A stretch of 64,000 nt of DNA, from positions 70,199 to 134,198 of the forward strand of contig BDDD01000371.1 of the NCBI GenBank assembly GCA_001972305.1. Reading direction: 5' to 3'. Source of the DNA: Cephalotus follicularis. Taxonomy: Eukaryota; Streptophyta; Magnoliopsida; Oxalidales; Cephalotaceae. Position 1 is the stretch's first letter; the number at the start of each line of letters is the position of its first letter. Positions 11,633-48,767 of this stretch are shown piece after piece. Position numbers and translations under genes: made by a program. The notes beneath the pieces are model-generated. The model was not told where the DNA came from, did no database searches, and saw only the letters and a program-made list of their open reading frames with translations.

Positions 11633-11838
11633 CAGTCAGTTGTTTTCTTGAACAGTCGGCTATTATGCATTGTGTAGTCGGCTGCATTCTTGAACAGTTG
11701 GCTGCTATGCCTTGCACAATCAACTGGACCCTGTTTCAGTTGGCTGGCTGTAGTTCCGCTTGATTTGTCGGCTGGCCATGTTGGGTAGTCGACTGCTATG
11801 CTTTGAACAGTCGACTGGAGTTCTGTTACAGTCGGCTG
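11633..11838. promoter_or_regulatory. Ten-copy GTCGAC-type palindrome array, G1 5' LTR
   Basis: Ten-base motifs start at 11633, 11653, 11675, 11695, 11717, 11737, 11765, 11786, 11808 and 11829. Best copies: CAGTCGACTG at 11808 and TAGTCGACTG at 11786. Steps are 20-22 bases except one of 28 before the last four copies. Variants mostly swap C/T or G/A at the CpG, as expected of methylation-driven decay. Confidence 0.85.
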
Positions 11839-12608
11839 GCGAGTCTAGAAAATTTCTACTTTCAAAATTTCCTTATCTGTTTGTCCTTCTGTTGAATCGA
11901 GGTCTATTTTAAACCCCGTTATATTCTGATTTAATGTTCGCAGTTAATTTCAAGTCCTTATATGAACGATTTTATATTTTATAGACTATTGTGCTACCGA
12001 GGGGCAGTTTAGGAATTTATCGATCAATTCATAAGTTATTTCTGTGATCGCATAAGGTACGGATATTATCGTTATTGGCTATCTTAATATGATTTTATTG
12101 AAACGATTCAGTTTTACTTTATGATTAATGTACGGATATATCTCGTTATCCTCTGATTCTATTGAGATGGATATTTCGTTCTCGGATATTCGGTTTTATT
12201 TGAAAAAAATCTATGTTATTTCTTTATGATTAAAGTTAAATATTACGGATTTTATAATTGAGCATGACTTTCACTTTCGACAGTATGTCGATTTTATGAT
12301 TCGGATATGATTTTGATTTCAGATATGTTTGAAAAATCTGTTTATGTTTTGAATTGTTTTTAGAATAAAACAATATTTTGGCATAATCACATATAGAGAA
12401 AAACTTACCTATGAGGTCTCATAGGCATTTTCTTTGGCACGGAGGACATGACACCTACCGTGGCGGTGTGATCGGTCTACGGCGTCTCTATATATATATA
12501 TCCTGAGGGTAGGGTATAGATCCTTTTGAGGCGTATGAGTCGACTCTTGTTATTATCACATTTGGATTTTGGGAATTGATTATGTAGTGTTGTACACGTC
12601 TTTCCGAT

Positions 12609-12757
12609 ATATATATATATATGTATATATATATGTATGTATGTACATATGTATATGTATGTATATATGTATATATGTATATGTATGTATGTACATATGT
12701 ATATGTATGTATATATGTATATATGTATATGTATGTATCTATATGTATGTATATATG

Positions 12758-12788
<31 letters not shown>

Positions 12789-12789
12789 G

Positions 12790-12823
<34 letters not shown>

Positions 12824-12845
12824 TATATGTATGTATATATGTGTA

Positions 12846-12881
<36 letters not shown>

Positions 12882-12890
12882 TGTATATTG
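12609..12890. repeat. TATATG/TATG microsatellite inside G1 5' LTR
   Basis: About 280 bases of mixed TATA, GTAT and ATGTAT units. It gives long open frames in all three plus frames (Tyr-Ile-Cys-Met-Val only), which are artefacts. The matching place in the 3' LTR (~48150-48180) has only a short run. Confidence 0.95.
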
Positions 12891-13479
12891 GATCTTTATA
12901 TGAAATTATGAAATTGGATAAATTATGATATTTTGCTATATGGATGTTTTTGGAAATTCGGAAATTTTAAATGATGCGACTTCATAACTGTTTCATATGA
13001 ATATTCTGTTTTACTTATGAAAGTATATTTTAATCATGTTTTGTAGGAAAATCATGATTTTGAGATATTTATTTATCTTTTAAATTTCTCTTTGCTGTTT
13101 TACATTCCTTATCCATAATGAGGTTTGCTCAGCCGCGTTTTTGTTTCCATGCGGCAGGTTATCAGGAGCATCGGGAGAAATGTGTGATGAGTGATGTCCA
13201 CCTATATATGAGGATCATCTAGGAGATTGGTCCGCTTGTGTTTTCAGTAGGTTATGGTCGTGTTTTGGCCAATCCTTTGAACAATATTATGTTTCTTTTT
13301 GGATTATGATGTCGGATTATGGTTCTGGCTCATGTTCCAAATTATGATATGTTATAGGATTATGTTTCAGACCACCACGTAATTTTGAATAAATTTAAGA
13401 TTATGCTTTGAGTTCATGATTAGATGTGTTCTGTTTTATGACCTGTTAGGGCTCCCACCTTCAGAGGTGTTACAGATTG

Positions 13480-16843: not shown

Positions 16844-19702
16844 TGTAACACCCTCGGACGGCGGGAGTCGTCACAGGTCATAATACAGAACCTATCATAA
16901 CATATCTGAACATAAACATAACATATCAGCCAAAAACGTGGCGGTCATAGCATAACTGAAAACTTAAAAACTTAACAATTTCTGAAAACTTAAACATATT
17001 CCAGTTCAAAACTAAAACATATGTATCTTATTGTTCATGACCACTTAAACAGAAAACATAACAGGATCACACTCATAGGGATCCAAAATATAAGATGGCC
17101 ATCTCTCGTTCACACATTCCCCCGCTGCTCCTGATAACCTGCCGCATGGAAAACAAAAACGCGGTTGAGCAAACCTCAGTACGAATAAGGAAAGAAAAAA
17201 AATAGTAAACGATAAATTTTAAAAGCGGTAAGATTTCGATAAAATTCATAACATAAATCTTAAGCAATTAAAAAGAATTAAATATTCGTAAAGTCACATC
17301 TGTACTTTCATAAAATCCATATAACTTTCGAAACATTTACGAAACATTTCAAAACATCATATCACGATTCATAAGTCATACTGAGCCATATACATATCAC
17401 ATAACATATATTTGGCAAGGGAGGCGCTAATTCCACATGCCCACTTGAATTGAAGTGTACGACACTACACAAGTCAATTCTCACATATCACATATCACAT
17501 ATCATATCACATATCATATACTATAATCGATTCATACGCCTCTATCACATAGCGGATCCATAAATCCACCTCATGGGATTTATTCATAACATTCAGAGAC
17601 GTCGTAGACTAATCACATCGCCACGGAAGTGTCATGTCCCCGTGCCAGGCCTATGACATGCCTATGGTACGCCCCATAGGTGGGTACAATACTCATTATT
17701 CAATCATTTCGAAAACATTGATTTATCAAAATCAATTTAAAAACACATAAATATGCTTTCAAAAAACATATTTGAAAATCGTTCACAACGATATCATATC
17801 ATACATTTCATAGCCAAATCATCAACTCATTTATACTTCGCTATAAAGAGGTGATCATAACATATCGTATCATTTCGTATCATATGAATAAAGTCGGAAT
17901 CATTTATAACGTCAAAAACCAACTTCATTTTCGAAAAACGTCAAAACCATAAAACATTACCAATTTCATAAACGAAGAGGCATAGCATAAAAAAAAATTG
18001 AATTCAGTTCGATAATCAGATAGCCAAGGAACGATAGAAATCCGTACCTTATGCGTTCACAAAAGCACTTACGGATAGATGATTTAAATCAAACTCCCCT
18101 TGAAGCACAACAATCTAAAAGACACCCAAAACCATTCATATAAGGGTCTAAGAAACATTAAAGACATTAAACAGACTTATAACAGTGTTTAGAAAAGACC
18201 CAGATTGATTCGGAGAACAAACGAAGCAAAACAGTTGAAAACATCACTTTTCTGGGCAAAACAGTCGACTGTTACAGAGCACCAGCCGACTGGGGAAGCT
18301 TGGCAGTCGACTAATCACAAGGGCAAGCCGACTACACAAACCAGAATGCAGGCAGCCGACTGTCACATAGATCCAGTCGACTGTGCATAACAAGGCAGTC
18401 GACTTGTTCATTGGGCAGTCGACTACACAACACAAGGCAGTTTACTGTGTTCATATGGCAATCGACTACTCATCCAATCCAGCCTACTATCCACAAGAAC
18501 AGCCGACTGTTCTGGACGACAGAACAGCAGAAACTTGACAATTTCATGTAGAAGTTGGTTCAATTGATTACCACATTAAACCAGGAACACAAGGGCATAA
18601 ACATATGACATAATATGGCATTTAGATGATACAGAAACACATAATATCTGGACAGTGGCCTAACTTCCAAGATAAAGCAAGAAGAACATTTACATGTGCA
18701 TACAAATATGTCCAGATTCCTGTCCATTATCATTTGCAGACTTTTAAAACCAGTTTGTGACAAGTCTAGGTGTATAAAACATGCTGACAGACTTACTAAC
18801 CCCATGACAGAACATATATATGTAGGAATCAAAACCAAAGGACACAAAGAACACAAAACTGGAATTATAACATTGTAGCAAATCCATCACAGTAGGAAAC
18901 GAATTAACTAACCTGTAATGGTATTAAGAACACGGAAAAACAGCAGAAAGAATGCCACTGAACAATTGTTAACCAGTTGTGAACAAAACAGAAGAAGAAA
19001 AAATGCCAACCAAATACAACCTTAATGCCATCCAATGAAAGACATAACCCAACACAAAAATAACGTAGGATTGAGAGGACATAACCAACCTTATTTTCGA
19101 TGAATGAAACAACACCAGAACAAAGAAATTTCCACTTGCAATTCGGCAGTGACAGTCTTTGCAAAGGTGAGAGAGAGATACCCCATAACAATGGCAAGGC
19201 ATTCTTAAACATGAAAGAAAGAGTGATTTGAGGGATGAATAAGAAAGAAGAGGAGAGAAGAATCAGTTTATTAAGGAAGAAAAGGATTGAAAACGTGTAG
19301 AAATAATGAGGGGAAAGAGAGAGTTTCGGGAGAGGAGGGGAAAGAGAGAGTTTCGGGAGAGGAGGGGAAGAAAAGGAAAAAAATGGGAAAAAAAAAGAAA
19401 GAAAAAGAAATAAAGGAATAAAAGAAATAAAATAATAGGAATAATAGGAATTAAGGAATTTTAAAATAAAAAGAAAGTAAATTGTTTTAATAAAATAAGT
19501 TGGATTTTAATAAGATAGATAAAAGCCCAAACCCAACATTGCACTACATATCAAAAAATTTCAGGCTGGTATCAGACAGCCTAAATCACATCGGCCCAAA
19601 ACAAAGGGCAACCGGACTTAAAAATAAAAGAAAATTTAAAAAGTCCGAAAACAAACACATAAAAAGTCCTTAAAAACACTTACGAACAAGCAGGGTATTA
19701 CA
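16844..19702 (-). mobile_element. G2 3' LTR (long form)
   Basis: On the plus strand TGTAACACCC..GGTATTACA; on the element strand TGTAATACCC..GGGTGTTACA. Contains a 12-copy palindrome array (18262-18509) and a purine-rich stretch on the plus strand (19215-19400) in which a ~27-bp unit GAGGGGAAAGAGAGAG.. is duplicated. The 3' end region (17400-17700) shares the ACCTATGGGG..GGCATG..GACATGACAC block with the G1 and S3 LTRs. Short antisense ORFs here are not genes. Confidence 0.9.
18262..18509. promoter_or_regulatory. Twelve-copy GTCGAC-type palindrome array, G2 3' LTR
   Basis: Motif starts: 18262, 18283, 18304, 18325, 18353, 18374, 18396, 18416, 18438, 18459, 18480, 18500. Steps are 20-22 except one of 28. 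In element orientation four copies lie on the far side of the 28-base step, as in G1 and S3. Perfect CAGTCGACTG at 18262 and 18374. This is the longest and most regular array in the window. Confidence 0.9.
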
Positions 19703-19716
19703 TCCACCCCCCCTAA
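19703..19716 (-). other. G2 polypurine tract
   Basis: Minus strand TTAGGGGGGGTGGA next to the 3' LTR; the usual plus-strand primer of gypsy elements. Confidence 0.8.
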
Positions 19717-20260
19717 TATGCTCCTCAAGCTCCCAAGTGGCCTCACGTTCGGGATGATTCTTCCACAGCACTTTCACAAAAGAAACGGTCTTGCTACGTG
19801 TCACCAGTTCCTCTCGATCCAGAATAGCCTCGGCCTCCTCGTCACAAGATAGGTCCTCCCGAATACTGTCCAAAGGATAGTGAACCATATGTAGGGGATG
19901 ATACTGATAACCTCTCAGCAAAGACACGTGGAACACGTTATGGATGTGTGCTAACTGCGAAGGCAAAGCTAACCGATAAGCAACTGCGCCTATCTTCTCC
20001 AGAACTTCGAAAGGCCCGATAAACCGCAAACTCAACTTTCCCTTCAGCCCAAAATGGTGGACTCCTTTCCAAGGTGAAATTTTCAAGAACACATGTTCAC
20101 CTACTTTGAACTCTAAGTCCCTCCGATGTCTGTCCGCATAACTTTTCTGTCGAGATTGAGCTGCTTTCAATCTCTCCCTTAATATTGCCACTTTATCCGT
20201 AGTGATCTACACTAGCTCGGGTCCTTCGATAACTAGCTCTCCAACCTCATCCAAACATGT
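19706..20260 (-). pseudogene. G2 integrase C-terminus with chromodomain-like tail
   Basis: Contains QSRQKSYADRHRRDLEFKVG, the [19 protein letters not shown] (SH3-like) block, HNVFHVSLLRGY, and a tail with VLWKNHPEREATWELEEHIR typical of chromovirus integrases, which in this clade are thought to steer integration to heterochromatin. Fossil. Confidence 0.85.
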
Positions 20261-21200
20261 CGGAGATCAACACTTCCTCCCATAAAGAGCTTCAAACGGA
20301 TCCATACCGATACTAGCATGCCAACTGTTATTGTAGGCAAACTCCACCAAGCTCAAATACTCATCCCAGCTCCCAGTCCATTCCAACGCACATGACCTCA
20401 ACATATCCTCTAAGGTCTGGATGGTTCTCTCAGTCTGCCCATCTGTCTGTGGATGAAAAGTTGTACTATAACTGAGCCTAGTGCCCCAAGCCTTCTGAAA
20501 CCCTTTCCAAAACCGCGAAGTGAAACGAGGATCCCTATCCGAAACAATGGATTCCGGAGTCCCATGTAGTCTCACTATCTCCTGCTGAAACACCTCAGCC
20601 AAACGATCAACAGAGAAGTCTTCTCGGATAGCCAAGAAGTGAGCCGATTTAGTCAATCGATCCACTACTGCCCAGATAGCATCATTCCTTCTGAAAGTTC
20701 TCGGAATAACCCGTAACAAAGTCCATCGATATACTCTCCCATTTCCATACTGGGACTTGCAAGGGTTGTAACAAACCACTAGCACGCTGGTGCTCAATCT
20801 TTACCTGTTGACAGATCAAACACCTCCCCACATACTCCGCTACATTCCTTTTTATTCCATTCCACCAGAAGTTCTTCTTCAAGTCCCTATACATTTTCGT
20901 AGAACCCGGATGTATAGAAAATGGAGAACTGTGTGCCTCTGACAAAACAGCATCTCTGATCGAAGAATCTGACGGAACACACAACCGATTACCCAGCCAT
21001 ATCACACCATGCTCATCCATACGAAACTCTAATTGCTTACCTTTTTCAACATTATGGACTAAGGCCCAAAGTTCACCATCATCACTCTGAGCTATCTTAA
21101 TCCGAGATATAAGCGTAGGCTCTACATTCATTGCAGCAACACAACCTTCAGAACCCCGAACATACAGATGTAAATCCATCTGCTCCATATCAGCTATCAA
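20260..21200 (-). pseudogene. G2 integrase (zinc finger and catalytic core) remnant
   Basis: HHCC region [31 protein letters not shown] (~20800-20930), then core with MDFVTG, VVDRLTKSAHFLAIRED, SDRDPRFTSRFW and HPQTDGQTERTIQ, giving the D, D and E blocks of the retroviral integrase core. Fossil. Confidence 0.85.
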
Positions 21201-22500
21201 CTGTGGATGAGTAAGCAAAGCAGCTACACTCCCAGAACTCTTCCGACTAAGAGCATCAGCTACCACATTTGCCTTACCAGGGTGGTACTGAATATTCAGA
21301 TCATAGTCTTTCAGAAGTTCCAACCATCTTCTCTGACGCATGTTCAACTCTTTCTGCGTAAAGATATACTTGAGACTCTTGTGATCGGTAAAGACGTCAC
21401 AAGTTTCTCCGTACAAGTAGTGCCTCCAGATCTTCAATCCAAACACTGCTGCTGCCAACTCAAGATCATGTGTAGGATAGTTAACTTCATAAGGCTTCAA
21501 CTGTCTCGAAGCATAAGCTATCACATGACCGTGCTGCATCATAACACACCCTAAACCCTTCTTAGAAGCATCGCTGTAGATCTGGTATCCACCCGACCCA
21601 GATGGTAAACGAAGAATCGGTGCCGACACAAGACCATTATTCAGTTTCTCGAAGGTTGCTTCTCTCTCCTCATTCCATTCAAACTTAGCTCCTTTTCTCA
21701 TAAGCTGAGTTAGTGGTAAGGCTATAGAGGAAAAGCCTTCCACAAACCGCCTATAATATCCAGCCAAGCCCAAAAAGCTCCTAACTTTCGTCACTGTGGT
21801 AGGTCTCGGCCATTTAGTAATAGCCTCAACTTTAGCAGGATCCACACTAATCCCTTCAGCTGTAACCACATGACCCAAAAACGCCACCTGTTCCAACTAG
21901 AATTCACACTTTGAAAACTTTGCGTATAACTGATTCTTCCTCAGAATACCCAGCACAATACGAAGTTGTTCTTCATGTTCTTCTTTCGACTTGGAATACA
22001 CGAGGATGTCATCTATGAATACAATCACAAACTGATCCAAGTACTAATGAAACACCCTATTCATCGGATCCATGAAAACTGTCGGTGCATTAGTGAGTCC
22101 GAAAGGCATCACCAAAAACTCATAATGCCCATACCGAGTACGGAAAGAAGTTTTAGGCACATTTTCATCCTTTATCCGAAGCTAATGATAACCCGATCTC
22201 AAATCGATCTTAGAGAAATACCGAGCACCTTGGAGTTGATCAAACAAGTCATCAATCCTAGGCAGTGGGTATTTATTTCGAACAGTAATCCGATTCAACT
22301 CTCTGTAGTCTATGCATAGCCTCATAGACCCGTCTTTCTTCTTCACAAAAAGAACCGGAGCACCCCACGACGAAACACTAGGCCGAATGAAACCCCGATC
22401 TAACAGCTCTTGCAACTATTCTCTCAACTCTTGCAGTTCCAACAGTGCCATTCTGTAAGGTGCCTTGATAAAGGTGTCGCTCCAGGAATGAGTTTGATGG
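21200..22500 (-). pseudogene. G2 reverse transcriptase and RNase H remnant
   Basis: RT blocks: [20 protein letters not shown] and [20 protein letters not shown] (22230-22400), FIDDILV (~22000-22027), [19 protein letters not shown] (~21820-21880). RNase [59 protein letters not shown]. Fossil. Confidence 0.9.
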
Positions 22501-23130
22501 TAAACTCTACTTCCCGTTGAGGTGGCAAACCCGGTAACTCCTCCGAAAACACATCAGAAAATTCTCTAACCATAGGATAGTCTTCAAGGTGAGTCTCAAC
22601 CTTTGAGATATCCTTCACAAGAGCTAAGAAACCTTCAGCGCCGTTAGCCACCAAGTTCCTAGGCTTCAGAGCAGAGATAACTTTCACTTCTTTTCTCAGT
22701 CGTGAACCCTGATAAATAAAATCAGGTCCATTCACATCCCCAAACATAACCCTCCGAGCGTAGCAGTCAATCGTAGCCCGATGACGATCCAACCAGTTCA
22801 TACCCAGAATCATATCGAAGTCATACATATCGATAGGCAGAATATCTGCATCTCGAATCCGATCATCAAAAATAATAGGACAAGCATAAAAACACTCAGA
22901 TATCACAATAGAAGAACCCGTAGCGGTCGAAAGAACCAAAGCTGGATCAAGCAACTGTGAAGACATCCCAAGATGCCGAACAAAAGACCTCGCTACAACC
23001 GAGTGGGTCGATCCAGTATCATACAAAATATAAGCCCTACGGTTACCAACAGAAATAAAGCCCAAAACAGTACCTCGTGCATTAGCAGCCTGCTGAGTCG
23101 TGATAGTAAAGACACGACCTCCCACATTGC
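22424..23130 (-). pseudogene. G2 protease remnant
   Basis: Retropepsin with ILYDTGSTHSVVA (catalytic DTG-type motif) and FDMILGMNWLDRHRATIDC, followed by the spacer [20 protein letters not shown] that precedes RT in this clade. Confidence 0.9.
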
Positions 23131-24227
23131 GCTGTCCATGATCTGCATTTTTCCCTTCCTTTCCTTCGCACGAGGGTCAGGACAATCCTTCACGAAATGC
23201 CCTTTCTGACCACATACAAAACAGGCCCCGATAGCCTTGTAGCACACTCCCACTGGATGCTGTCTACCGAAAACATCACACTTGGCAATCTGGACATCCA
23301 CAGCTCCCTGTGTCTGCCTTTGATCATTACCGGGATGTTGCTGTCCCCGGTTATCATTCCTCTTTCCTCGCTTGCCATTTCTATTCTTACTATTCTATCC
23401 AGAACCTTGACCTTGAGAATCCCCTCTGTTTCTCTTCCTGACACTTTCCTGACGAGCTATCTGGAAATCTAACCTTTCCAGTTCTATGTTCTTTGCCGCA
23501 TTTGCCACTTTAGAAACATCAGCAAACCTGGTGTTGATAAGTTTACCCCGGAGCTGATAGTGTAACTTCCACTTGAACTTTTCCGCCTACTCCAATGTTG
23601 TCCCTGCCACGAACCCAGCAAAACCAGCAAGCCTAGTGAATCGGGTCAGAAACTCCGTGACTGACTCTCCATCCTTCTGTCTGGTATTGATGAACTCCCT
23701 GGCGTAAGCCTCCTTATCAGCAGCGGGAAAGTACTGCTGATAAAAGACTTCGCAAAACTCGGACCAGGTCAAAGTCTCCACATAGTTGCCACCCTTAGCC
23801 AAATCCACAGCCTTCCACCATTTTTGAGCATCACCCTCAAGCTTGTAAATAGCTAACTTAACGTTCTGCCCGTCACTACAACCAAGCACATCAAAGATCT
23901 TGTCCATATGAGCAATCCAGTGCTCAGCCTCCACAGGAGTCACGGCTGAGCTGAAAGACTGCGGTCTCTGCTTCTGGAACCGCTCAAGCCAGATATAAAT
24001 AGGCGTGTCAGTCCTGCCCCCAGCTTCTCTCCCAACTGAACATCAGTTGGAGCATCCTCCTCAATGACCGGCTCCCTACGGCCTTGTTCCTGATTCTGTT
24101 CACCCAACACGCGTCGTACCTCTCGAGCGACTGCCTGACGTACTACCTCCTCCATAGACGGCTCATTTCTGACTCCTTGAGCCTCAACGGGTGCAGTCCT
24201 CTGAGCAGAGTTCCTTGTACGTGCCAT
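23130..24227 (-). pseudogene. G2 gag remnant
   Basis: Begins MARTRNSAQRTAPVEAQG at 24227, contains the capsid-type block KLAIYKLEGDAQKWWKAVDL and the zinc knuckle CFVCGQKGHFVKDC near 23170-23215. About three frames carry it. Closely parallel to the G1 gag. Confidence 0.85.
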
Positions 24228-24381
24228 CTACGAAAAGGCACTCAAAACATAAAACATCACAAAGAACAAAAACCGAAGCAGAAAACATATCATAAAATCA
24301 TGATCGAAACAGCCTAACCCAGTGTCTACTCAGTCTCATAGGTCAAACCTAGTTAGGTCTTCTAAGGAAACAAAACCTATT

Positions 24382-24392
24382 CTCTGATACCA
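24382..24392 (-). other. G2 primer-binding site
   Basis: Minus strand TGGTATCAGAG five bases from the 5' LTR end at 24398. Confidence 0.9.
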
Positions 24393-24397
24393 CAATC

Positions 24398-25384: not shown

Positions 25385-25389
25385 GTTCA

Positions 25390-27483: not shown

Positions 27484-27488
27484 GCTTT

Positions 27489-29058: not shown

Positions 29059-29094
29059 CCCATCAGATGTTATAATTGCGGTCAAGAAGGTCAT

Positions 29095-36635: not shown

Positions 36636-37440
36636 ATTGGTGGAATAACATGAAGAGAGAAATTGCGAATTTTGTGTCAAGATGTCTGGTTTGTCAAAAA
36701 GTTAAAGCTTAGAACCAATTGCCAAAAGGAACTCTACAATCACCTCCCATACCCGAGTGGAAGTGGGAGCACATCAGCATGGATTTCATCACTGGACTTC
36801 CGAGAACCACTAAGGGTAATAATGCAATATGGGTGATTGTGGATCCTTTAACGAAATCTGCTCATTTTCTACCGGTAAAGGACAGTCATTCATTATGTCA
36901 ATTGGCGAGGATTTATGAGCAAGAAATAATCAGGTTACATGGCGTACCTGTATCGATTGTCTCAGATCGAGATCCCCGTTTCACATCAAGATTTTGGAAG
37001 AGTCTAGAAAATGCTTTGGGTACTAGATTAAATTTTGGTACGGCATACCACCCGCAGACGGATGGACAATCAGAGCGAACTATTCAAATATTGGAAGACA
37101 TGCTAAGAGCTTGTGTGATAGATTTTCAAGGGAGTTGGGAACAGCATGTGACTCGGATTGAATTTGCCTACAATAATAGTTTCCAAGCTAGTATACAGAT
37201 GGCACCTTTTGAAGCAGTATACGGATGAAGATGTCAAACACCTATATGTTGGGAAGAAGTACGAGAAAGGAAGTTATTGGGACCAGAAATGGTACAAGTA
37301 ACTACAAAAAAGGTAAAGTTGATTCAGAAACGTCTCTTAATAGCCCAAAGTAGACAAAAGAGCTATGCAGATAAAAGAAGAAGGGAGTTACAGTTTGAAG
37401 TGGGAGATCATGTTTTCTTAAAGGTATCACCTTAGAAAGG
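36636..37440 (+). pseudogene. G3 integrase remnant (zinc finger end and catalytic core)
   Basis: Resumes G3 after S0 with YWWNNMKREIANFVSRCLVC, then the core: [59 protein letters not shown] and FAYNNSFQASIQMAPFEAVY. The D,D,E blocks are all recognisable. Fossil. Confidence 0.9.
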
Positions 37441-37444
37441 AGTA

Positions 37445-37828
37445 ATGAGATTTGGCAAGAAAGGAAAACTCAGTTCGAGGTATATTGGACTGTTTGAGAT
37501 TCTAGAAAGAATTGGAGAGGATGCGTATAGGCTTGCACTACCATCAAATCTCTCTCACGTTCACGATGTATTCCATATATCTCTTCTTCGAAAATATATG
37601 GCCAACCCATCTCATGTTCTAAGAACTGAACCAATACAAGTACATAAAGACTTATCCTACGACGAGTAACCGATGGGAATTCTGGATCATAAGGAACAAA
37701 TTCTAAGGACCAAAATAATTCCCTTAGTAAAAATGTTGTGGAAGAATCATGGAGTCGAAGAAGCTACTTGGGAATTGGAAGAGACAATGAGACAAGAGTA
37801 CCCTCATATTTTTAACTCTATTGAATAA
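37445..37828 (+). pseudogene. G3 integrase C-terminus with chromodomain-like tail
   Basis: GKKGKLSSRYIGLFEILERI and HVHDVFHISLLRKY, then a tail containing EEATWELEETMRQEYPHIF, the chromodomain-type end of plant chromoviruses. Followed by the PPT (37852-37867) and 3' LTR. Confidence 0.85.
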
Positions 37829-37851
37829 GCAAATTTTGAGGACAAAATTTT

Positions 37852-37867
37852 TATAAGGAGGGTAGAA
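37852..37867 (+). other. G3 polypurine tract
   Basis: ATAAGGAGGGTAGAA directly before the 3' LTR start at 37868. Confidence 0.8.
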
Positions 37868-39356
37868 TGTAATTACCAGAAATTTTGTTGAAGCTATTGT
37901 TATGGAAATATGGTTGTTCTAAGTGTCGTATGGTGTGTTGTGTGTATGTTTTGCGTTTTGTAGCATTGAAAGCATCGACTATCTAATTTTAAAGCGTCAA
38001 TGGTTAGTCTTCAGTGTACACAAAGTGTCGACTAATTCCGTACCCCAAAACACACCAAACTTATTAACTTAAGCGTTAACGGTTTGTTATAGCATAGTGG
38101 GAAAGTGGCGACGCTTATGCGTTTAAACCAACAACACTTGTTTCCTTTTCCTTCGACGGTTTAAGCCTTATTTCCTTTGTTAAAAGCGCTCAATTGGTGA
38201 CACTTAGTGGGAAAGCGGCAGCGCTTTGAGGTTAAAGTGTCGACGCTCTTTAAAGAACAAAGCTTGAAAACGCCGACACTTATCTGGTTTTTTTTTTGTC
38301 GTTTTATGAGTTAATCAACTTATTTATGGACAGATGTCAAGCAACGGACGGTAGAGTTAAGATATTTTACCTGGCTGTTATTATTTTAAGATAAAAAATG
38401 ACAAGTGTCATTAATCTGGAGGAAGAGAAGCACATAGGCGGCTGCAAAACGTGGACGGCGTAAAACCTTACAGACTAAGTTACTCTCCTATAAATACAGA
38501 GGTAACTTCTGCCAAAAAAAAATTACTGAGAAGGAGAGAAAAGAAGGAGAAAAACAAGGAGAAAAAGAAAGAGAGAGAATAGGAGAGAAGAGAAAAGAAG
38601 GAGAATTCTACTGAGATTTCAGTGTAGAAATTACTTCAGTGTAGAAAAGGAGAGAAGGAGATTAAAGCAAAGTAAGGATTCCTACTTATTTTTGTAAAGC
38701 ATTCTTACGTTATTACTTTTTATAAAAGTATTTTATGCTTACTCATTTTTTAAGTATTTTTGTTATTTCTGGAAATTATGCAACATATTGTTATGTTTCA
38801 TGTATTTCGAATTTCTGACAATTTCTTGATGAAATTATATGTTTAAAATTCTTGCTCATATTATGTTGTTATTTCTTAATGAAAATTATGATTTTATCAA
38901 TTTGAAATCATTAAAATGTCTACTATAATGTTACTGTTTTATGTTGCTATATGTAAATTCAGTTTTGCAAATGTTGTACAAATCTATTTTTATGAATACC
39001 TTGAGCTGATTAAAGTATTAAGAAATGATTTTATAAAAAAATAATAAACTAAGATGAACAACTCTTGGATTGTGATCCAAGGGGGATTAATCCGAGAAGG
39101 ATTAAATGAGCGGATGTGCTCACGGACATGCATGTGATGTAAGGATAGTAATCGGGGAGTGCACAATGCTTAGGTGAAGAAAAAGGTTTCAGTTGGGTTA
39201 TTTAAGTTTATAAAACCCCTCAGTTATTTATGAAATATTCTGGTTCATGAGATATGATCAGAAAATGAAATGAAATGTTTTGTTTCATGAGATATGAACA
39301 GAAAAGAATGAATGTGATAAAATGTTTATTTTGAAACCCTTACTGGGATATTTAAG
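37868..39356 (+). mobile_element. G3 3' LTR, left part
   Basis: Same family as 25603-27483. Palindrome cluster at ~37977-38280, a clear TATA box at 38489 and a purine-rich leader downstream. Interrupted at 39356 by S2; its right part is 44392-44806. Confidence 0.9.
38489..38496 (+). promoter_or_regulatory. TATA box of the G3 LTR
   Basis: TATAAATA followed within ~30-40 bases by a long GA-rich stretch (38526-38606), the expected layout of a plant LTR promoter and transcribed leader. Promoter activity is inference. Confidence 0.7.
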
Positions 39357-39510
39357 TGTAATAACCGCAATTTTGATTCATGTATTTTGTACCCAACGAT
39401 GAATAAAATATACTTTTTGAGATATTATGTTGATTACCTTTTTGAATAGAATGATGTTGGAATAAAATTCTTAGATGAAAAACAAAAGAAATAATTTATG
39501 GTGCCAAACT

Positions 39511-39650
39511 GCCGACGCCTAAAATCATACCGTCGACGCTTTAAGCCCTTACACGTGCACAGAACGCACAGTTGAAGGCTGAGTTAAGGCGCCAAAAACG
39601 TCGACCTTTAAACGCCCAGCATCGACGCTTAAAGGCGTATAAGCGTCGAC
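39511..39650. promoter_or_regulatory. First GCGTCGACGC-type array of S2, interrupted by S3
   Basis: Core hexamers at 39511, 39532, 39571 (weak), 39600, 39621 and 39645. Several steps are 21 bases. S3 is inserted inside the last palindrome. Confidence 0.7.
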
Positions 39651-42600
39651 TGTAATACCCCGATTTTCGTGTGCTTATTTTCGGAATTTGGTTTGATTTT
39701 ATGTTGGTGTGCATATTTTGGAATTTTATTTTATTAGATGGTTGGTCAATTTAAATTGGACTTTTATGTTTTAGGCTTAAAGACGTTAATTTTGGGCTGT
39801 TGAATATTGGTTGGACTATGTACATGAATAAGTAAAATTAATTGAATTATATTTTGTATAAATATAATATCAGTTATTATTATTGTTATTATTTCGATCT
39901 ATTTTAATTTATGAGATATATGATATTATAATTTTTGGGTTTTTATGTCTTAGGCTAAATAAATACCATCTTTGGGCTTTTGATAAATTATTGGAATAGG
40001 GATTATGGGAAATATAAAATAAATTGTTTGTATTATAAATTAGTTTTTAATATTAATATGGCAAAATAAGAGTATTATGGCAATTTATTTTTATTTCCTA
40101 TTTTCTTCCCTCTCTCTCCCGTTTTTCTTCCGTTTCCCTCTCACAAAACTGATTTCTTTCCTTAATTCTCACCCTCAATCCCGAAATTTTGCTCCTTTTC
40201 CTTATCATAACAGATTTTGATTTCCTTTTTGCCTTACCATGACCTAAATTGCCTTTCCCATATTGTATATGTATGTCATTATGCATTGTTTGTGCCTCCA
40301 TTGTTTATCTATCTCCTGGTAGCCGAACCTGCAAGTTTGTAGACTGTTTTGTGCTTCTTTGTTCATCATATCAGGTTTGTTTCTCTATTGTTATGGTTTA
40401 ACTTGGATGTTGGTTGCTTGTTCATGTTGGCTGCCAGTGTGGTTTGTTTGATTTCTTCAACCATGGCTACTGGACCTGTCGACATGCATTAGGTAGATGA
40501 TAAATACTGGTTTTTATTAAAGATAATGATTAATGACAGAAAACTTGATCATATAAGCATGCATGCAATAAATTGAAATTGCTTCTCCTTAAAGAAAGGT
40601 CACCCATTGCATGAACTTTTGATTCTGGATGTTTAAATGCCACGGTTAAGTCACATAAGACCTATATAAGTGTTTAAAATCATCTGGTAATGTTGTAATA
40701 TGGTTTTAACAGACAAATTGGAATTAAAACTGCTGTGTGTGCTGTTCTGTCGAGCAGAACAGTTGACTGTTAGCCATTGAGTAGTCGATTGCCACCATTG
40801 AACAGTCGACTGGATTCATACCAAGTTTGAGTAGTCGGCTGCCTATGCCATACAGTCGACTGCCACCCTTTGAGTAGTCAACTGGATCTTGATACAGTCG
40901 GCTGGAATTGTCCAGTGAATTTTCTGGTTTTAAGTTTTGTAATCCATTTGTTCGTCTAATAATTTGGAGTCTATTTTAAACACTATTGAATTACTGTTTG
41001 ATGTTTGGAAGTGATATTTGAATGCTTATATGAATGAAATGGTATCTTCTAGATTTTTGTGCTTCAAGGGACTTTTAAATTGTTGATCAATTCGTCTATA
41101 ATTGTTGTGATCGCTTAAGGTGTGGATCATTCTTTCTTTGGCGCTCCTATTGATTTTATTAGAGTAAAAATGTTAGTTTTACTTTATGAATAACGTACGG
41201 ATTGCTCTCGTTTCCTTGGCTATCTGATATTTCGAACTGAAAACAGTTTTGATAAGCTTCTTCGTTTATGAATTGATAATGTTTTATGGTTTTGACATGT
41301 TTCGAAATTAAAGTTGGTTTGACATTTTTAAACAATTCCTGACTTTATGTTTTGGCTCTGAAATGTTTACGAAATGCTATGCAACCTTGGATATTTTATA
41401 AAATCTATTTTACTACTAAAGTTTAATATTACCGCTTTTATAAATTAAGTATGACTTTCACATTTGAAAGTATACGGATTTTGGATTTGATAAACGAACA
41501 TGACTTCTACCATCGAAGTATGTTAAACGAACATGACTTTCACATTAGGAAGTATGTTTACTTTGGATATGGATATACAGAGATATTTCCCACCTATGGG
41601 GTGTACCATAGGCATGTCGTAGGCCTGGCACGGGGACATGACACTTCCGTAGCGGTGTGATTAGTCTACGGCGTCTCTCTATGTTTTGAATAAGTACCAT
41701 GAGGTGGACTTATGGATCCGCTATGTGATAGAGGCGTATGGATCGATCCTAGGATATGTTAAGGATTCGGATTTTGGGGATTGATTGTGTAGTGCCGTAC
41801 ACGTCTTTCCGTTGGAGCATGTGGGCCTTGCAAACCCCTTGCACTTATGTATATGTACTTTGGATCTCTATTATGAGATTTTGGAATCGGATAAGTCTCT
41901 GTTATATGTTTTGGTTCTCTATTATGAGATATCGGAATCGGATAATTTTTTGTTTTGAAACCCCTTTTTGACTCGGACAATGTTAAAGAGATTTTGAGTA
42001 TCGTTTTGAATATCATTTTGGGATTTTTGATTTGCATTGAAACTTTGATTATGCTTTGAAAATCTGATTTTTCTTTTAGATATCGTTTTTGAAATTTTTT
42101 AACGTTTTGAAATTCGGATATTGGTTTTGAATTGATAGAACTGTTTATAATTATTTGATACATGTGTCGTATGATATTTCAAAGTTCAGGTATTTTCTAT
42201 CTTTTAAATTATCGTTTTATGTTTTATGATTCTATATCCGTACTGAGGTTTGCTCAACCGCGTTTTTGTTTCCACGCGGCAGGTATTCTGGGACAGCATC
42301 CGGGCAATGTGTGATGAGCGAGATGTCACCTATGATAAGGATCACTTAGGAGATGGACTCGTTTATGCTTAGTTATTTTATGGTCATGTTAGAACCCCTA
42401 TTTGAGTAATATTATGCCTTTCAGTTTATGACTTTGGATTATGTTTCAGCTTTGGTTTATGTTTAAGTTTTCGGATTATGAATAAAGTTTTCAGACTATA
42501 TCTTAGATTATAAATGTTATGCTTAGACCATCACGCAATTTGAATTAAAGATGAGTTAATAATTTGATAGTAAGAATAAAAGCGAACCTTGATTTATAGT

Positions 42601-42729
42601 TAAATAGGAATATATGCTAAGCTAATAAATTGATAAAAATGAATAAAAATTGAGCCATGTTATATGATAGGTTATGCTTAGTCTCGGATTAGGAACCGCA
42701 ATGACTCCCTCCGAATCGGGGGTGTTACA
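39651..42729 (+). mobile_element. S3, solo LTR of Tekay type inside S2
   Basis: TGTAATACCCCG..GGGGGTGTTACA, 3079 bp, flanked by tcgac (39646-39650, 42730-42734). Related to G1 and G2 LTRs: pyrimidine-rich stretch (~40100-40145), palindrome array (40760-40904), the block ACCTATGGGGTGTACCATAG..GACATGACAC (~41590-41650), and TTTGCTCAACCGCGTTTTTG near the end. No coding sequence. Confidence 0.9.
40760..40904. promoter_or_regulatory. Seven-copy GTCGAC-type palindrome array of S3
   Basis: Starts at 40760, 40782, 40803, 40832, 40853, 40875, 40895. Steps 22, 21, 29, 21, 22, 20. Four copies follow the long step, as in G1 and G2. Confidence 0.85.
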
Positions 42730-43693
42730 TCGACGCCCACGATAGAAACGGCGATGCTTTAGACGTGTTTTGGGTCAAAGATATGTGTCAGTTGGAATGG
42801 AATGGCAGAGTTTAAATGATGGTAACATTGGCATGTGTCCATAGACGTGTTGGCCATGCAAAGAGGCTTCACCAGTTGTTGCCAAGGCAGACTAAGGTGT
42901 CTTGCATGTATTCCTTTCACCTGCACAGCCTGAAAAAGAAAAGAGAAAGAAACAAAAGGAAGATGCATGCATGAGGGAGAGAGAAATGTTCAAAATTTGA
43001 AAAGCTGAGGAATTAAAGACACGAATTAGGCCTTATATCAGCTGATGCTTGAGCTATTTGAGTGTTGAAAAACACTGAGGAAGAGGAGGACTAGCTGGAC
43101 AGTTGCTGGGAATTGCTAGAGGTTGCATGTTAATGTTTGAAGAGTTCAAGTAGTTGACGCTTTGATTCCAGGTAAGTTACAATTCGAAGCTCACTTACTG
43201 TGGTTAAGATGGTTATGTAAACATGTTGATGTCAATGATATACCTACTGTTGAACATGTAAATCAGTAGTTGGATCGTAGAAGTTAATTGAAAAAAATGA
43301 AGAAGTGATTTAAATGGGATTAGAGGCTTAGAAGTTCTAGTAATCCTTTTGATTCAAACCAGATAATGACTATAGTAACTGACTTGTATATACATACTGA
43401 TTTTGTGTATATATATCTTCTGTTGAACATGCGAAATCTATACTGAAAACTACTGGGATTGAAGGATTGAAAGGAGGGTGAAGAACATTGGACATAAAGG
43501 GAGAAATCAATTCCAATTGATTTCGGGATAGCGATTGAGGTAGGGGATTTTGACATGTTTTTGAACATATAACATGTATAATGTGTAGTGATGGTCAATA
43601 CTTGATTGCATGTTGAATTGAACTGAGTTTGGGCTGATTTTGTGCGTCCCCTGTTTTGAAATTGCTCCTGGAAATCGTATGAATGCCCGAAGC

Positions 43694-43840
43694 GCCGACG
43701 CTTACACAAAAACTATCGACGCTTTGGTGCAAAAATGGCATATTAAGGCTTAGAATGTCGACGCTTAAGCTTTGATCATGCGTGTAGTGTCAACGCTTAG
43801 ACAACAACAATCAACGCTTACACAGAAACTGTCGACGCTT
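43694..43840. promoter_or_regulatory. Second GCGTCGACGC-type array of S2
   Basis: Core hexamers at 43694, 43715, 43757, 43789, 43810 and 43831: steps 21, 42, 32, 21, 21. Occupies the place of the CAGTCGACTG array at 34769-34881 in S1. Confidence 0.8.
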
Positions 43841-44391
43841 TAGGACAGTAAATATAGAAATGTACTGATTGATTGTACCCTTGTGCGGTATTCTTGCATT
43901 GTTCTGTCTATGGCCATTTGGCATGATTGCGTATATATTGGAATACTATACATATATATGTCATTTCATTCAAACTGTCATGCATACTTACATTTATAGA
44001 TTCAATTACATGCTTTATCTTCCTACTTAGCCAAGTGAGGACAACGGCTAACCCCTACAATTTCAGATTAAGCGAAGACGTACGGGAAGTGCTGTTGGAG
44101 CTTTTGGAGAGTTTTTATCTGCTTAAGGTTGTTATCCTTATGATTTGTAGTTGTAATGAACGGTTCGCACTCCGTTATTGTTTTACCTTTCCTTATGTAT
44201 AAGGATAATTCGATGGATTGTATACGCACATAGTATGGGCTGTGTGCGGATGACTTTTATTTTATAATCCAGATATGAATGCTTCCGCTTATTTATGAAA
44301 TGTTGAATGAAATGCTGGATTATATTTATTTCTGATATCACCATATATGCTTGTCCCTAAGGGAATTGGAAAGGTGGGGTGTGACATTAAG

Positions 44392-44806
44392 CTCATTCCT
44401 TTCAATGTTTTGTTTTTAAATAAAATTTTCCATGGGATGGATGAACGAAGAAATTTCGAGCTTTAGAGGGTGCTCATAAATGAAGCTTTTTAAAAAAGAA
44501 TTATGTTATGCATTAATGTTTTGTATAAACTTCTTTTGATGTAACAAGTTAATGTTTTCCGCTGTGAAATGTATCTTGATGATGTTGACTATGATCGTTA
44601 TGGTTTATGTTGATGTTTCAATGAGAGTATGACATTTTAAAGTTTAGTATTAAAATTTGTAAATTATATATGAGATTATGAGAAATTGGATAAATGTTAG
44701 CAATTAGTAAGATTGTTAAAGGATCAAAGGCTTCACCCCCACGTAACGCACCAAATTTTTGTAGTTTGCTTTGAGCATAAAGTGAACTCGGATCGGGGGC
44801 GTTACA
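44392..44806 (+). mobile_element. G3 3' LTR, right part
   Basis: Continues the LTR after S2 to GGGGGCGTTACA at 44806, then the target copy gatgt and G1 integrase. Confidence 0.9.
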
Positions 44807-44811
44807 GATGT

Positions 44812-45964
44812 AGCGAAGTTTGTTCGGAGGTGTTTGGTTTGTCAGCAGGTCAAGATTGAGCACCAGGAGCTAGTGGATTGTTGCAACCTTTAGAGATTCC
44901 AGTCTGGAAATGGGAGAGCATAGCGATGGATTTTGTTACTGGCTTGCCAAGGACATTCAGGAGGAACAATGCTTTCTGGGTAGTGGTGGATCTATTGACC
45001 AAATAGGCTAACTTCTTGGCTATCCGAGAATAGTTTTCTGTGGACCGATTAGCGGAGGTTTTCTAGCAGTATATAGTGAGACTTCATGGGACACCTGTAT
45101 CCATTGTTTCGGATAGGGATCCCCGTTTCACTTCTAGATTTTGGAAGGGGTTTTAGAAGGCTTGGGGAACACGGCTCAATTACAGCATAGCTTTCCACCC
45201 ACAAACGGATGGGCAATTTGAGATGACCATCCACACTTTAGAGGACATGTTGAGGTCCTGTGCTTTAGAGTGGACTAGAAACTGGGATGAATATTTGAGC
45301 TTGGTGGAGTTTGCTTACAACAACAGTTGGCACGCTAGCATTCAAATGGTGCCATTTGAGGCATTGTATGGGGGGAAATGTCGAGCTCCGACATGTTAGG
45401 ATGAGGTAGGAGAAAGAGTTATTGAAGGACCTGAGCTAGTCCAGGTCACTACTGATAAAGTGACTATAGCTAGGGAAAGATTGAAGGCAACTCAATCCGA
45501 ACAGAAGAGTTATGCAGATAGACATCGAAGAGACTTGGAGTTTAAAGCAGGTGAACATGTGTTTTTCAAGGTTTCACCTTGGAATGGAGTCCGTCGGTTT
45601 GGATTGAAGGGAAAGTTGAGTCCTCGATTTATAGGACCATTTGTAGTTCTGGAAAGAGTTGGCGCAGTTGCATATCGGTTAGCTTTGCCTCCACAGTTAG
45701 CACATGTCCATAACGTGTTCCATGTGTCTATGTTGAGGGGTTATCAGTACCATCCCCTACACGTGGTCGACTATCCTTTGGACAGGATTGGGGAGGATTT
45801 ATCTTGTGAAGAGGAGGCAAAGCTATTCTGGATCGACAAGAAAGGGTTAAGAGAGGTAAGACCATTCCTTTTGTTAAGGTCTTGTGGAAGAATAATCCGG
45901 AGTGTGAGGCAACATGGGAGTTAGAGGAGCACATTCAGGAGCAATACCCTCGCTTGTTTGATTA
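44812..45964 (+). pseudogene. G1 integrase remnant (core, C-terminus, chromodomain-like tail)
   Basis: Resumes G1 with [12 protein letters not shown], then [30 protein letters not shown], and AYNNSWHASIQMVPFEALYG. The C-terminal part (45460-45920) has [40 protein letters not shown] and [18 protein letters not shown], and the ATWELEEHIQEQYPRLF tail near 45905-45960. Fossil. Confidence 0.9.
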
Positions 45965-46004
45965 AGGTATGTGGTTATTTATGATTTCGAGACGAAATCT
46001 CCTT

Positions 46005-46019
46005 TTAAGGGGGTGGAGA
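46005..46019 (+). other. G1 polypurine tract
   Basis: TTAAGGGGGTGGAGA immediately before the 3' LTR start TGTAATCCCTG at 46020. Confidence 0.85.
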
Positions 46020-48767
46020 TGTAATCCCTGTCTGTCCGTGTGTAAAAATTCGGGCTTTTAAACTGTTTGTTTAGTGGTCTGCCTATTTTATTTTGGTTTA
46101 TATGATTTGGGCTGACTGATACCAGCCTTGGCCTATTGGGCATCTGTTAGTATGTGTATATGAATAAGTAATATTTATTTTATTATATTTTAACTTATTA
46201 TAAATCAGTTTTTATTATAAATTTGTTTTATTTAAAACAAAATCTTTTAATTTAATTCTTTCTCTCTCCCATATCTCTCCCTATCCCATATATCTCTCAT
46301 TCTTCCTCTCTATCTCACCCGATTCTCTCCCATTTTCCCTCTAACTTCCCCAAATATCTTCCTGTTTTCCTTGTCCCTCCCGAATTTGTCTCCCCCTTTC
46401 TGTTTAAGTAAGATGTTAGCCACACCATCATGTCATCTCTTCCTCTCTCGCTTGGTTATAGCCGATTCTGCAAGCTTGGGAAATTCTTCTGTTCTTCTTG
46501 CAGTCTCATGTTTTCAATCAGGTTTGTTCTCTAACGGTTAGACTTATGGATTGTTTTTCTTTGATATGCATAACATTGGCAGACTGTTGAGTCCTTGTGT
46601 TTTCCTTCTCTTTTTTTTTTCCTGTTGAACAGTCATTGTAAGCCTTGGAAATCTTTGTGTTCCTTCTACAGTTTTTGTATCGCCATTATAGGTTGGTTTT
46701 CTTGTTTTGATGTGATGGTTTGTCCTGTTTCGTTATGAATCTGATTGTATGTTTATACAGGCTGTTAGAATTTCGTTTTCGATTCTTGCCACTCTATGCT
46801 CTGTTATTGTTTTTGAGTCTGTTAGCAAGTCTTTAGGCGCCTTATATTGGTTGCTTGCTGGTTTTGATAACTGGTAGTTGGTATTTTGACAGTGAACTTG
46901 TTATATATGTATATATGCAGTGGATTAGAATTCACCCCTCTCTTTAAGTATAGCCACTGTCTGTAGATCTCTCTTATTTGCAGTGTTCTTTTACTGTTTT
47001 AATATCATATATGGTCTTATTTAAATGGTTGTGGCCTTCTGATAATGTGATATCCAGATTTTGACAGGAAAATTGCATAGGACTGTTAGACATTTGTGTT
47101 CTGTTGTCTAGAATAGTCAGTTATTTTCTTGAACAGTCGGCTATTATGCATTGTGTAGTCGGCTGCCTTCTTGAATAGTCGGCTGCTATGCCTTGCACAG
47201 TCGACTGGACCTCTGTTCCAATTGGCTGGCTGCAGTTCTTCTTGATTAGTCGGCTGGCCATGTTGGGTAGTCAACTACTATGCTTTGAACAGCCGACTGG
47301 AGTTCTGTTGCAGTCGGCTGGTGAGTCCAGAAAATTTCTACCTTAAAAATTTCCTTATCCGTTTGTCAATCTGATGAATCGGGGTCTATTTTAAACACTA
47401 TTATATTCTGATTTAATGTCCGCAGTTAATTTCAAGTCCTTATATGAATGATTTTATATTTTATAGATAATTGTGCTACCGAGGGGCAGTTTAGGAATTT
47501 ATCGATCAATTCATAAGTTATTTATGTGATCGCATAAGGTACATATATTATCGTTCTTGGCTATCTTCATCTGATTTTATTGAAACGATTCGGTTTTACT
47601 TTATGATTAATGTACGGATATATCTCATTATCCTCTAATTCTATTGAAATGGATTTTTCGTTCTCGGATATTCGGTTTTATTTGAATAAAATCTATTTTA
47701 TTTCTTTATGAATAAAGTTAAATATTACTGATTTTATAATTGAGTAAGACTTTCACTATCGAAAGTATGTTAAACGAGCATGACTTTCACTTTCGAAAGT
47801 ACGTCGATTTTATGATTCGGATATGATTTTGATTTCGGATATGTTTAGAAAATCTGTTTATGTTTTGAATTGTTTTTAGAATAAAACAATATTTTGGCAT
47901 AATCCCATACAGAGAAAAACTTACCTATGAGGTCTCATAGGTATGTTCTTTAGCACGGAGGACATGACACATACCGTGGCGATGTAATCGGTTTACAGCG
48001 TATATATATATCCTGAGGCTAGGGTATGGATCCTTTTGAGGTGTATGAGTCAACTTTAGTTATTATCGAATTTGGATTTTGGGAATTGATTGTGTAGTGC
48101 CGTACACATCGTTCCGTTTGGCATGTGGGCCACGTGAACCCACATTTATGTTTATATATATATGTATGTATGTACGTATATTGGATCTCTGTATGGAATT
48201 ATGAAATTGGATAAATTATGATATTTTTCTATATGGATGTTTTCGGAAATTCAGAAATTTTAAATGATGCGACTTCATAAATGTTTTATATAAATATTCT
48301 GTTTTACTTATGAAAGTATATTTTAATCATGTTTTACAGGAAGATCATGATTTTGAGATATTTATTTATCTTTTAAATTTATGTTTACTGTTTTACATTC
48401 CTTATCCGTACTGAGGTTTGCTCAGCTGTGTTTTTGTTTCCATGCGGCAGGTTATCAGGGGCATCGGGGAAATGTGTGATGAGTGATGTCCGCCTATATC
48501 TGAGGATCATCTAGGAGATTGGTTAGTTTGTGTTTTCAGCAGTGTTATGGTAGTGTTTCTGCCAGTCCTTTGAACAATATTATGTTTCTTTTGGGATTCT
48601 GATGTCGGATTATGGTTTTGGCTCATGTTCCAGATTATGATATGTTATAGGATTATGTTTCAGACCACTACATAATTTTGAATAAAGTTAAGATTATGCT
48701 TTGAGTTCATGATTAGATGTATTCTGTTTTATGACCTATAAGGGCTCCCATCTTCGGGTGTGTTACA
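46020..48767 (+). mobile_element. G1 3' LTR
   Basis: Homologous to 10545-13474 along its length, with the same pyrimidine-rich stretch (46255-46400) and palindrome array (~47113-47325), but without the long microsatellite. Ends GTGTTACA at 48767, followed by agaac. Confidence 0.95.
47113..47325. promoter_or_regulatory. GTCGAC-type palindrome array, G1 3' LTR
   Basis: About ten copies in the same order as in the 5' LTR; the best are CAGTCGACTG near 47198 and CAGCCGACTG near 47290. Confidence 0.8.

Follow-up and report, generated by a model that had tools for sequence, protein, structure and literature searches.

Palindrome arrays in a nest of LTR retrotransposons

The stretch of DNA analyzed here (the window) comprises 64,000 nucleotides of the Cephalotus follicularis genome (assembly GCA_001972305.1, contig BDDD01000371.1, positions 70,199 to 134,198) and is a nest of plant long terminal repeat (LTR) retrotransposons that carry arrays of short palindromes with the common core GTCGAC. 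An initial annotation, made from the sequence alone, had named 13 positions of such arrays, and palindrome sites were found at all of them, within a few bases. It had described a single degenerate GTCGAC-core palindrome; the core stands, but the arrays belong to two main motif classes rather than one. The CAG-type class (YAGTCGRCTG) occurs at 270, 6758, 11633, 18262, 33611, 34769, 40760 and 47113, and the AAGC-type class (AAGCGTCGACGCTT) at 9727, 25700, 37977, 39511 and 43694, the arrays at 25700 and 37977 being loose versions of it. The arrays had been placed in LTRs and a copia leader. The carriers comprise Ty3/gypsy LTRs and solo LTRs related to them, plus one internal leader, where an AAGC-type array (9724–9953, minus strand) lies 3′ of a tRNA-Met primer-binding site (PBS)-like sequence at 10082 on the minus strand.

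Element A (10547–48767, plus strand) is a Ty3/gypsy element with the target-site duplication (TSD) AGAAC and a tRNA-Met primer-like site at 13480, and it is interrupted by elements B and C. In self-comparison, its 5′ LTR (A5, 10547–13474) matches positions 46022–48767 at 89.6% and 91.7%, and its 3′ LTR (A3) spans 46020–48767; the LTR ends, the TSD and the PBS were read from the sequence. Both LTRs carry a plus-strand CAG-type array of ten sites, at 11633–11838 in A5 (steps of 20, 22, 20, 22, 20, 28, 21, 22 and 21 bp) and at 47114–47320 in A3. Element B (16844–25384, minus strand, TSD TGAAC) is nested in A, and its 3′ LTR (B3, 16844–19702) keeps the best CAG-type array of the window (18262–18509, minus strand). 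As initially annotated, this array has twelve sites that step by 20–22 bases with one 28-base step (20, 21, 21, 22, 20, 22, 21, 28, 21, 21 and 21 in LTR orientation). The second LTR of B (24398–25384) is missing about 1.8 kb and with it the entire array.

Element C (about 25603–44806, plus strand) also interrupts A. Its 5′ LTR (about 25603–27483) has a loose AAGC-type array at 25706–26015, and its 3′ LTR, which starts at 37868, has another at 37971–38280 with identical steps, both on the plus strand. Within the 3′ LTR of C lies a solo LTR termed F44 (39357–44386, plus strand, TSD TTAAG), which is itself split by solo LTR E (39651–42729, plus strand, TSD TCGAC). E is related to the LTRs of A and contains a plus-strand CAG-type array of seven sites at 40760–40904 (steps 22, 21, 29, 21, 22 and 20 bp). 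F44 contains two AAGC-type arrays on the plus strand, one of five sites, the third of them weak, at 39508–39629, and one of six sites at 43691–43839 (steps 21, 42, 32, 21 and 21 bp). A second LTR of this type, F36 (33468–36183), is assigned to the plus strand from its LTR start and TATA context. It has two CAG-type arrays of six sites each: F1 (33611–33738, plus strand; steps 21, 27, 21, 28 and 21 bp), at the position aligned with the first array of F44, and F2 (34769–34881; steps 20, 21, 21, 21 and 20 bp), whose polarity is opposite to the plus strand. Finally, two F-related partner repeats, 96% identical to each other, carry minus-strand CAG-type arrays of four sites, G1 (270–339, steps 20, 20 and 20 bp; LTR end at 1753) and G2 (6758–6827; LTR end at 8464).

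The homology of F36 and F44 allows their arrays to be compared by position. The two LTRs align in blocks of 84%, 63%, 67% and 80% identity, in order, and their arrays lie in the matching two intervals, yet both are CAG-type in F36 and both are AAGC-type in F44. A further copy on contig C1 of the same assembly, F44-like at 82% (L066), was chosen by its second array, and its first array is also AAGC-type. Another copy on C1, F36-like at 65–78% (L067), has CAG-type arrays at both positions; it was chosen because both were already listed as CAG-type and is thus no independent test.

Reading frames of A, B and C beside the array-bearing LTRs match the domains RVP_2, RVT_1, RNase H, integrase zinc-binding, rve and SH3_Tf2-1, in a scan of 10 of the 19 frames of 150 amino acids or more; F36, F44 and the element at 9.7 kb have no assigned coding part. 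A chromodomain match in the pol of B (19670–20206) is weak, at 24.9 bits against a cut-off of 25.1. The top named relatives of this pol piece, among the best 120 of 8,000 scored, are Ty3-gypsy or putative nucleotidyltransferase proteins from Tanacetum, Helianthus and Apium.

Spacing register and conservation of the core

The sites are spaced in a narrow register. With up to two mismatches allowed and the satellite at 1700–5800 left out, CAGTCGACTG-like sites form 35 pairs at 20–22 bp in the window, compared to a mean of 0.025 (maximum 1) in 40 dinucleotide shuffles. The initial annotation had proposed a genome-wide scan of this spacing, and the peak is present: the whole assembly (1,577,397,061 bases) contains 166,339 pairs of exact GTCGAC at 20–22 bp. 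Outside the register there are 138 pairs at 10–11 bp, 693 at 16–18 bp (the off-register control), 1,474 at 23 bp and 1,643 at 24–26 bp, where bins are three spacings wide except for 10–11 (two) and 23 (one). Secondary peaks occur at 27–29 bp (24,429 pairs), 31–33 bp (7,445) and 41–43 bp (75,674, including pairs with a third site between them). The reverse pattern CAGCTG, used as a control, gives 59 pairs at 10–11 bp, 367 at 16–18, 1,742 at 20–22, 45 at 23, 338 at 24–26, 241 at 27–29, 134 at 31–33 and 702 at 41–43. This control also peaks at 20–22 bp, at about one hundredth of the GTCGAC signal, and is raised at 41–43 bp, a small echo.

Phased runs, defined as three or more cores with up to one mismatch in steps of 20–22 bp, were found in 8 of 20 ten-kb stretches, drawn from 20 contigs of the same genome at a single fixed coordinate. 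There were 14 such runs in all and none in 20 shuffled sets, while control runs numbered zero at 16–18, 24–26 and 31–33 bp and one at 27–29 bp. Two pattern scans of viral contigs returned zero and one match, and the last 173 bases of the one match, the part viewed, held no further sites.

Within the arrays, the register takes a form characteristic of each class. CAG-type arrays combine steps of 20–22 bp with a step of 27–29 bp (about 2.67 helical turns). Arrays in A, B and E have one such longer step, the fourth counted from the 3′ end, and F1 has two. AAGC-type arrays have, besides 21 ± 1 bp, steps of 31–33 and 40–44 bp (3 and 4 turns) and also of 23, 29, 39, 48 and 49 bp. Step lengths match within 1 bp over 6–9 homologous steps between A3, B3 and E, compared to only 64–67% of 21-bp windows that keep their length within 1 bp in the rest of the LTR alignment. 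It had been suggested that the sites lie on one face of the DNA. This agrees with the 21-bp step but not with the 28-bp step; since 27–29 bp is about 2.67 turns, the one-face arrangement is not strict, and the genome-wide peak at this spacing weakens it further.

Information content is concentrated in the core. Among 45 CAG-type sites, counted with A5 and G2 left out as duplicates, nine of the ten core positions carry 1.0–2.0 bits and the tenth 0.94, compared to 0.01–0.52 bit over 24 flanking positions, 20 of which are below 0.4 bit. Tandem Repeats Finder reports 2–4 copies at 66–80% matches in three arrays (34788, 43788 and 47107). By both measures, the whole unit including its spacer is not alike between copies, as it would be in a minisatellite, and the view of the initial annotation that the arrays are no simple tandem repeat is borne out. 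Recent tandem duplication is rejected by the low information of the spacer and flank positions of CAG-type sites. Neither a missing genome-wide peak nor duplication of a 21-bp unit with its spacer, the two outcomes named in advance as refuting, was found. A faint likeness between spacers fits an ancient duplication, and the copies reported by Tandem Repeats Finder make such an origin likely. A coding origin, in which 21 bp would represent seven codons, is also rejected because a reading frame would be lost at steps of 20, 22 and 28, and a search with the peptide of the 18315–18551 frame gave no candidate.

Two places elsewhere in the genome bear on duplication. At C1:1678358–1678405, three cores have identical spacers and form a perfect 21-bp tandem, possibly a recent unit duplication. 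At L024:84–530, four consecutive CAG-type runs of four sites start 113–125 bp apart, which suggests duplication of a whole sub-array.

The core is better conserved than the spacer between diverged copies. Between A3, B3 and E, core identity is 0.80–0.84 and spacer identity 0.35–0.54. A wider comparison, which covers the CAG class, started from 48 stretches, 8 from the window and 40 from contig C1, the latter taken from genome-wide pair listings and therefore not a random draw; the 42 with three or more sites were used. A total of 167 pairs passed the alignment filters, 166 of which were sorted into four bins by spacer identity; these pairs share sequences and are not independent, and the detection of sites by consensus match favors the core. 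The closest bin holds 13 pairs, six of which come from four related stretches; here divergence is 0.050 in the core and 0.024 in the spacer. The middle bins give 0.083 versus 0.115 (20 pairs) and 0.114 versus 0.292 (65 pairs), and the most diverged bin gives 0.130 versus 0.416 (68 pairs). The ratio of core to spacer divergence falls from 2.08 in the closest pairs to 0.31 in the diverged pairs. The spacer also diverges more than the flank in the alignments, which is not claimed as faster evolution, local alignment favoring flanks.

Close copies were also compared as 12 presumed partner pairs, of which only A5 and A3 are confirmed to belong to a single element as its two LTRs. Differences number 42 of 941 positions in the core, 40 of 994 in the spacer and 111 of 3,257 in the flank; without one pair with unusual spacers (L057/L058, 16 of 73), they number 39 of 871 in the core and 24 of 921 in the spacer. 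In the 12 pairs, transitions at CG or CHG sites make up 36 of the 42 core differences and 8 of the 40 spacer differences, an excess that partly follows from the richness of the core in such sites. Among close copies the core thus mutates, if anything, more readily than the spacer, but between lineages no other part is kept as well. This combination is read as selection on copies that are still transposing: sites seem to be kept while elements replicate and lost after insertion.

The sites also have a direction. In 29 CAG-type arrays, a few of them related and four without marks, direction marks agree within arrays in 104 of 119 cases, compared to a random mean of 80 and maximum of 94; in 14 arrays the outer marks point the same way as the inner ones, and in 4 they do not. 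Each site thus has a slight asymmetry, and neighboring sites follow one another head to tail. Among 160 exact phased sites, the two-base arms of the palindrome match in a fraction of 0.544, compared to 0.354 in shuffles, but the excess disappears when CA/TA arms are removed (0.16 versus 0.175, 50 sites), and three-base arms show none (0.10 versus 0.118). The symmetry is therefore a property of the class, not site-by-site compensation. A third arm class occurs elsewhere in the genome (L044, L023 and L039), with AGAC or AGAA before GTCGAC and GTCT or TTCT after it, and keeps the register only in part.

A proposed docking strip for a dimeric protein and rival explanations

On balance, the arrays probably serve as cis-acting docking strips, most of them within LTRs, that a dimeric sequence-specific DNA-binding protein would bind, and arrays occupied by it would activate LTR transcription. 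This protein would most likely be a transcription activator of the host. The interpretation in the initial annotation is partly supported: of its candidates, the binding array of a dimeric factor has the best support. Among 28 AAGC-type sites, complementarity between the two halves does not exceed that of shuffled halves (0.93 of shuffles as good), and the one AAGC-type array that was folded as RNA, the second of F44, has no excess structure (z-score −0.96; 35 of 200 shuffles at least as good). Independent half-sites and the absence of excess structure in this array fit a dimeric DNA-binding protein better than RNA pairing. The general layout also recurs with different arms, which is counted in favor of docking, and the arrays occur in either orientation relative to the inferred LTR sense. 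Enhancers tolerate either orientation.

We infer the following mechanism from the layout of the sites. Each monomer would read a half-site around (A)NNGTCG, and two half-sites would stand head to head without a gap. The dimers would be stacked along the DNA every two helical turns, with other allowed offsets of 28 bp in the CAG type and of 32 and 42 bp in the AAGC type. Occupied arrays would turn on LTR transcription, so that transposition and descendants come from copies whose sites are intact. Once inserted, a copy would be methylated by the host at the many CG and CHG sites within its palindromes, and it would decay.

Several observations weigh against the docking strip. A search of the motif literature with transcription-factor terms gave no binding protein for GTCGAC; it returned one paper on WRKY50, in the available text of which GTCGAC is a cloning site in primers (PMC7811519). 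The 27–29-bp step is not a whole number of turns, and the array at 9724–9953 is downstream of a PBS-like site and outside an LTR, so that neither geometry nor position is absolute. The shared direction of the sites exceeds what a purely symmetric site needs, and the CAG-type arrays fold better than shuffles as RNA. The position relative to a promoter is judged from TATA-like strings: in F36, F44 and G, TATATATTGG strings follow the second array on its downstream side, among many other TATA-like strings on both strands. In addition, the difference in motif class between F36 and F44 involves only two lineages and may thus rest on a single switch event. A changed reading protein may explain this joint difference simply, the alternative being a recombination that replaced both arrays.

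A broader form of the docking proposal is possible but doubtful. Many LTR lineages, including Ty3/gypsy, may share one docking-strip code, consisting of the GTCGAC core, the 21-bp register and lineage-specific arms, in which homologous LTRs change arm class at both positions at once. A small family of dimeric proteins, made by the host or by the elements, would then determine the activity of retrotransposon families or their protection from silencing. If true, this shared code would help explain the spread of these LTRs through a 1.6-Gb genome.

The main rival to the docking strip, though an unlikely one, is an anti-silencing array of the kind bound by VANC proteins. Here, by analogy, a protein of the mobile element would bind dense motifs of the same direction and strip DNA methylation, and the class difference would reflect co-evolution with such a protein. 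The agreement of direction marks within arrays is as reported for the YAGTATTAY motif in VANDAL21, in the available text of PMC5735166. The motif is dense in CG and CHG sites, close copies differ by changes of that type, and homologous LTRs differ in motif class at two positions, all of which would suit this explanation. On the other hand, no extra gene was noticed beside gag-pol in A to C among the 19 frames of 150 amino acids or more, 10 of them scanned, a survey that a small or broken gene could escape. The term "palindrom" also has no match in the available text of PMC5735166. VANDALs, moreover, are DNA transposons.

A paired-RNA structure, which the initial annotation had also listed, is less probable still. 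Neighboring palindromes would pair in the transcript, either forming hairpins as a source of small RNAs or linking two genomic RNAs to each other; palindromes of maize Sireviruses are reported to be small-RNA hotspots (Bousios et al. 2016, as cited in the available text of PMC10760457). The CAG class keeps a case for RNA, since its arrays fold better than shuffles (B3, z −5.44 in LTR sense and −3.30 on the other strand; A3, −4.26) and the halves of its 45 sites have a weak complementarity excess (0.035, or 0.02 with G.U pairs). The best argument is that LTR-sense variants in A5, A3, B3 and E are G.U-compatible rather than A.C at core pairs 4:7 (21 versus 1) and 1:10 (13 versus 2). However, no such preference exists at pairs 3:8 (4 versus 2), 5:6 (4 versus 5) and 0:11 (3 versus 5), and adjacent sites pair hardly better than all site pairs. 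For the AAGC class the explanation is weakened, by halves that do not covary and by the folded F44 array at shuffle level. In F2, G1 and G2, the site polarity runs against the inferred LTR sense; the F sense is inferred from C-like LTR starts and TATA context, so this counter-argument is a moderate one. Finally, RNA pairing does not demand a 21-bp register.

It is very improbable that the arrays are simply a host-side target of methylation and silencing, whose dense CG and CHG symmetry would draw maintenance methylation, with the element unable to escape it. Each CAGTCGACTG has one CG and two CHG symmetric sites, and core changes in close copies are of the methyl-C type. Yet a benefit to the host only would leave unexplained why copies that keep the palindrome leave descendants, and why the spacing register exists. 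Least credible is an old functionless tandem repeat, made of 21-bp units by slippage with the palindrome surviving by chance or gene conversion, for which the partial copies reported by Tandem Repeats Finder speak but which was already disfavored and conflicts with a core-to-spacer divergence ratio that is low in diverged pairs despite being high in the closest ones.

Relation to known systems and further features of the window

The initial annotation stated that no LTR element of this kind was known. This is not the case, as Sireviruses (Ty1/copia) have palindromic boxes, 8–32 per element with 3–14 in the 3′ LTR, upstream of the TATA box (Bousios et al. 2010; this and the following statements on these boxes are from the available text of PMC2829016). 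The boxes include Tnd-1 ACAATCGATTGT, which contains TCGA, and a Vitis box, CGGTCGACCG, which contains GTCGAC, and all but Tnd-1 have a CGG-CCG signature. They are called Sirevirus-specific and absent from classic retrotransposons, the comparison set being Ty1/copia.

The arrays described here resemble these boxes in being palindromic, in lying in LTRs and in having element-specific arms. In the Sirevirus system, a box is repeated at least eight times; the LTRs of A (ten each) and B3 (twelve) reach this number, while E has seven sites, F2 six, and G1 and G2 four each. The differences are that carriers A, B and C are Ty3/gypsy by their frame matches, that the core is GTCGAC rather than CGG-CCG, to which Tnd-1 is likewise an exception in the original set, and that the sites keep a 20–22-bp register, while the word "spacing" appears in the available text of PMC2829016 only in a reference title. 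The small-RNA palindromes of maize Sireviruses (Bousios et al. 2016) share with these arrays a palindrome-rich cis region of the LTR. They are explained by secondary structure, according to the available text of PMC10760457, in contrast to the folded AAGC-type array.

The targets of VANC proteins are similar in that dense short motifs of the same direction lie in the non-coding part of a mobile element (available text of PMC5735166), as they do here, and in that the motif differs between related families (available texts of PMC5735166 and PMC10398659). They differ in that VANDALs are bound by a protein that the element encodes, and "palindrom", "spacing" and "periodic" have no match in the available text of PMC5735166. 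VANC arrays are a functional parallel rather than a family match.

Another well-known arrangement is that of iterons in plasmid replication origins, which are rows of directly repeated protein sites of about 20–22 bp. Iterons belong to replication origins, and no relation to LTR arrays is implied. Among the open-access matches listed, no report was found of GTCGAC palindrome arrays in LTRs or of such arrays in Ty3/gypsy LTRs; most subscription journals lie outside this scope, so this is weak evidence of novelty.

If the docking strip is real, Sirevirus-type palindromic LTR boxes would extend to Ty3/gypsy elements, with a strict geometry that a protein must fit. It would also provide a handle on the factor behind the expression of an abundant class of plant retrotransposons. 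Because the core is kept between lineages and decays in close copies, a requirement for transposition is directly testable.

Other features of the window concern the nest itself. Solo LTR E sits inside a GTCGAC palindrome of the F44 array, with its TSD TCGAC at 39646–39650 and 42730–42734. This is one case; a weak preference of LTR-element insertion for palindromes is reported in the available text of PMC6911290 and is relevant only to the insertion of E. At the start of the window, 24.5 copies of a 163-bp tandem repeat (1754–5748) directly follow the F-type LTR end at 1753. From 5753, after this satellite, F-related LTR sequence resumes without its first 280 bases or so, and the repeats that flank the satellite, at 4–1363 and 6496–7870, are 96% identical.

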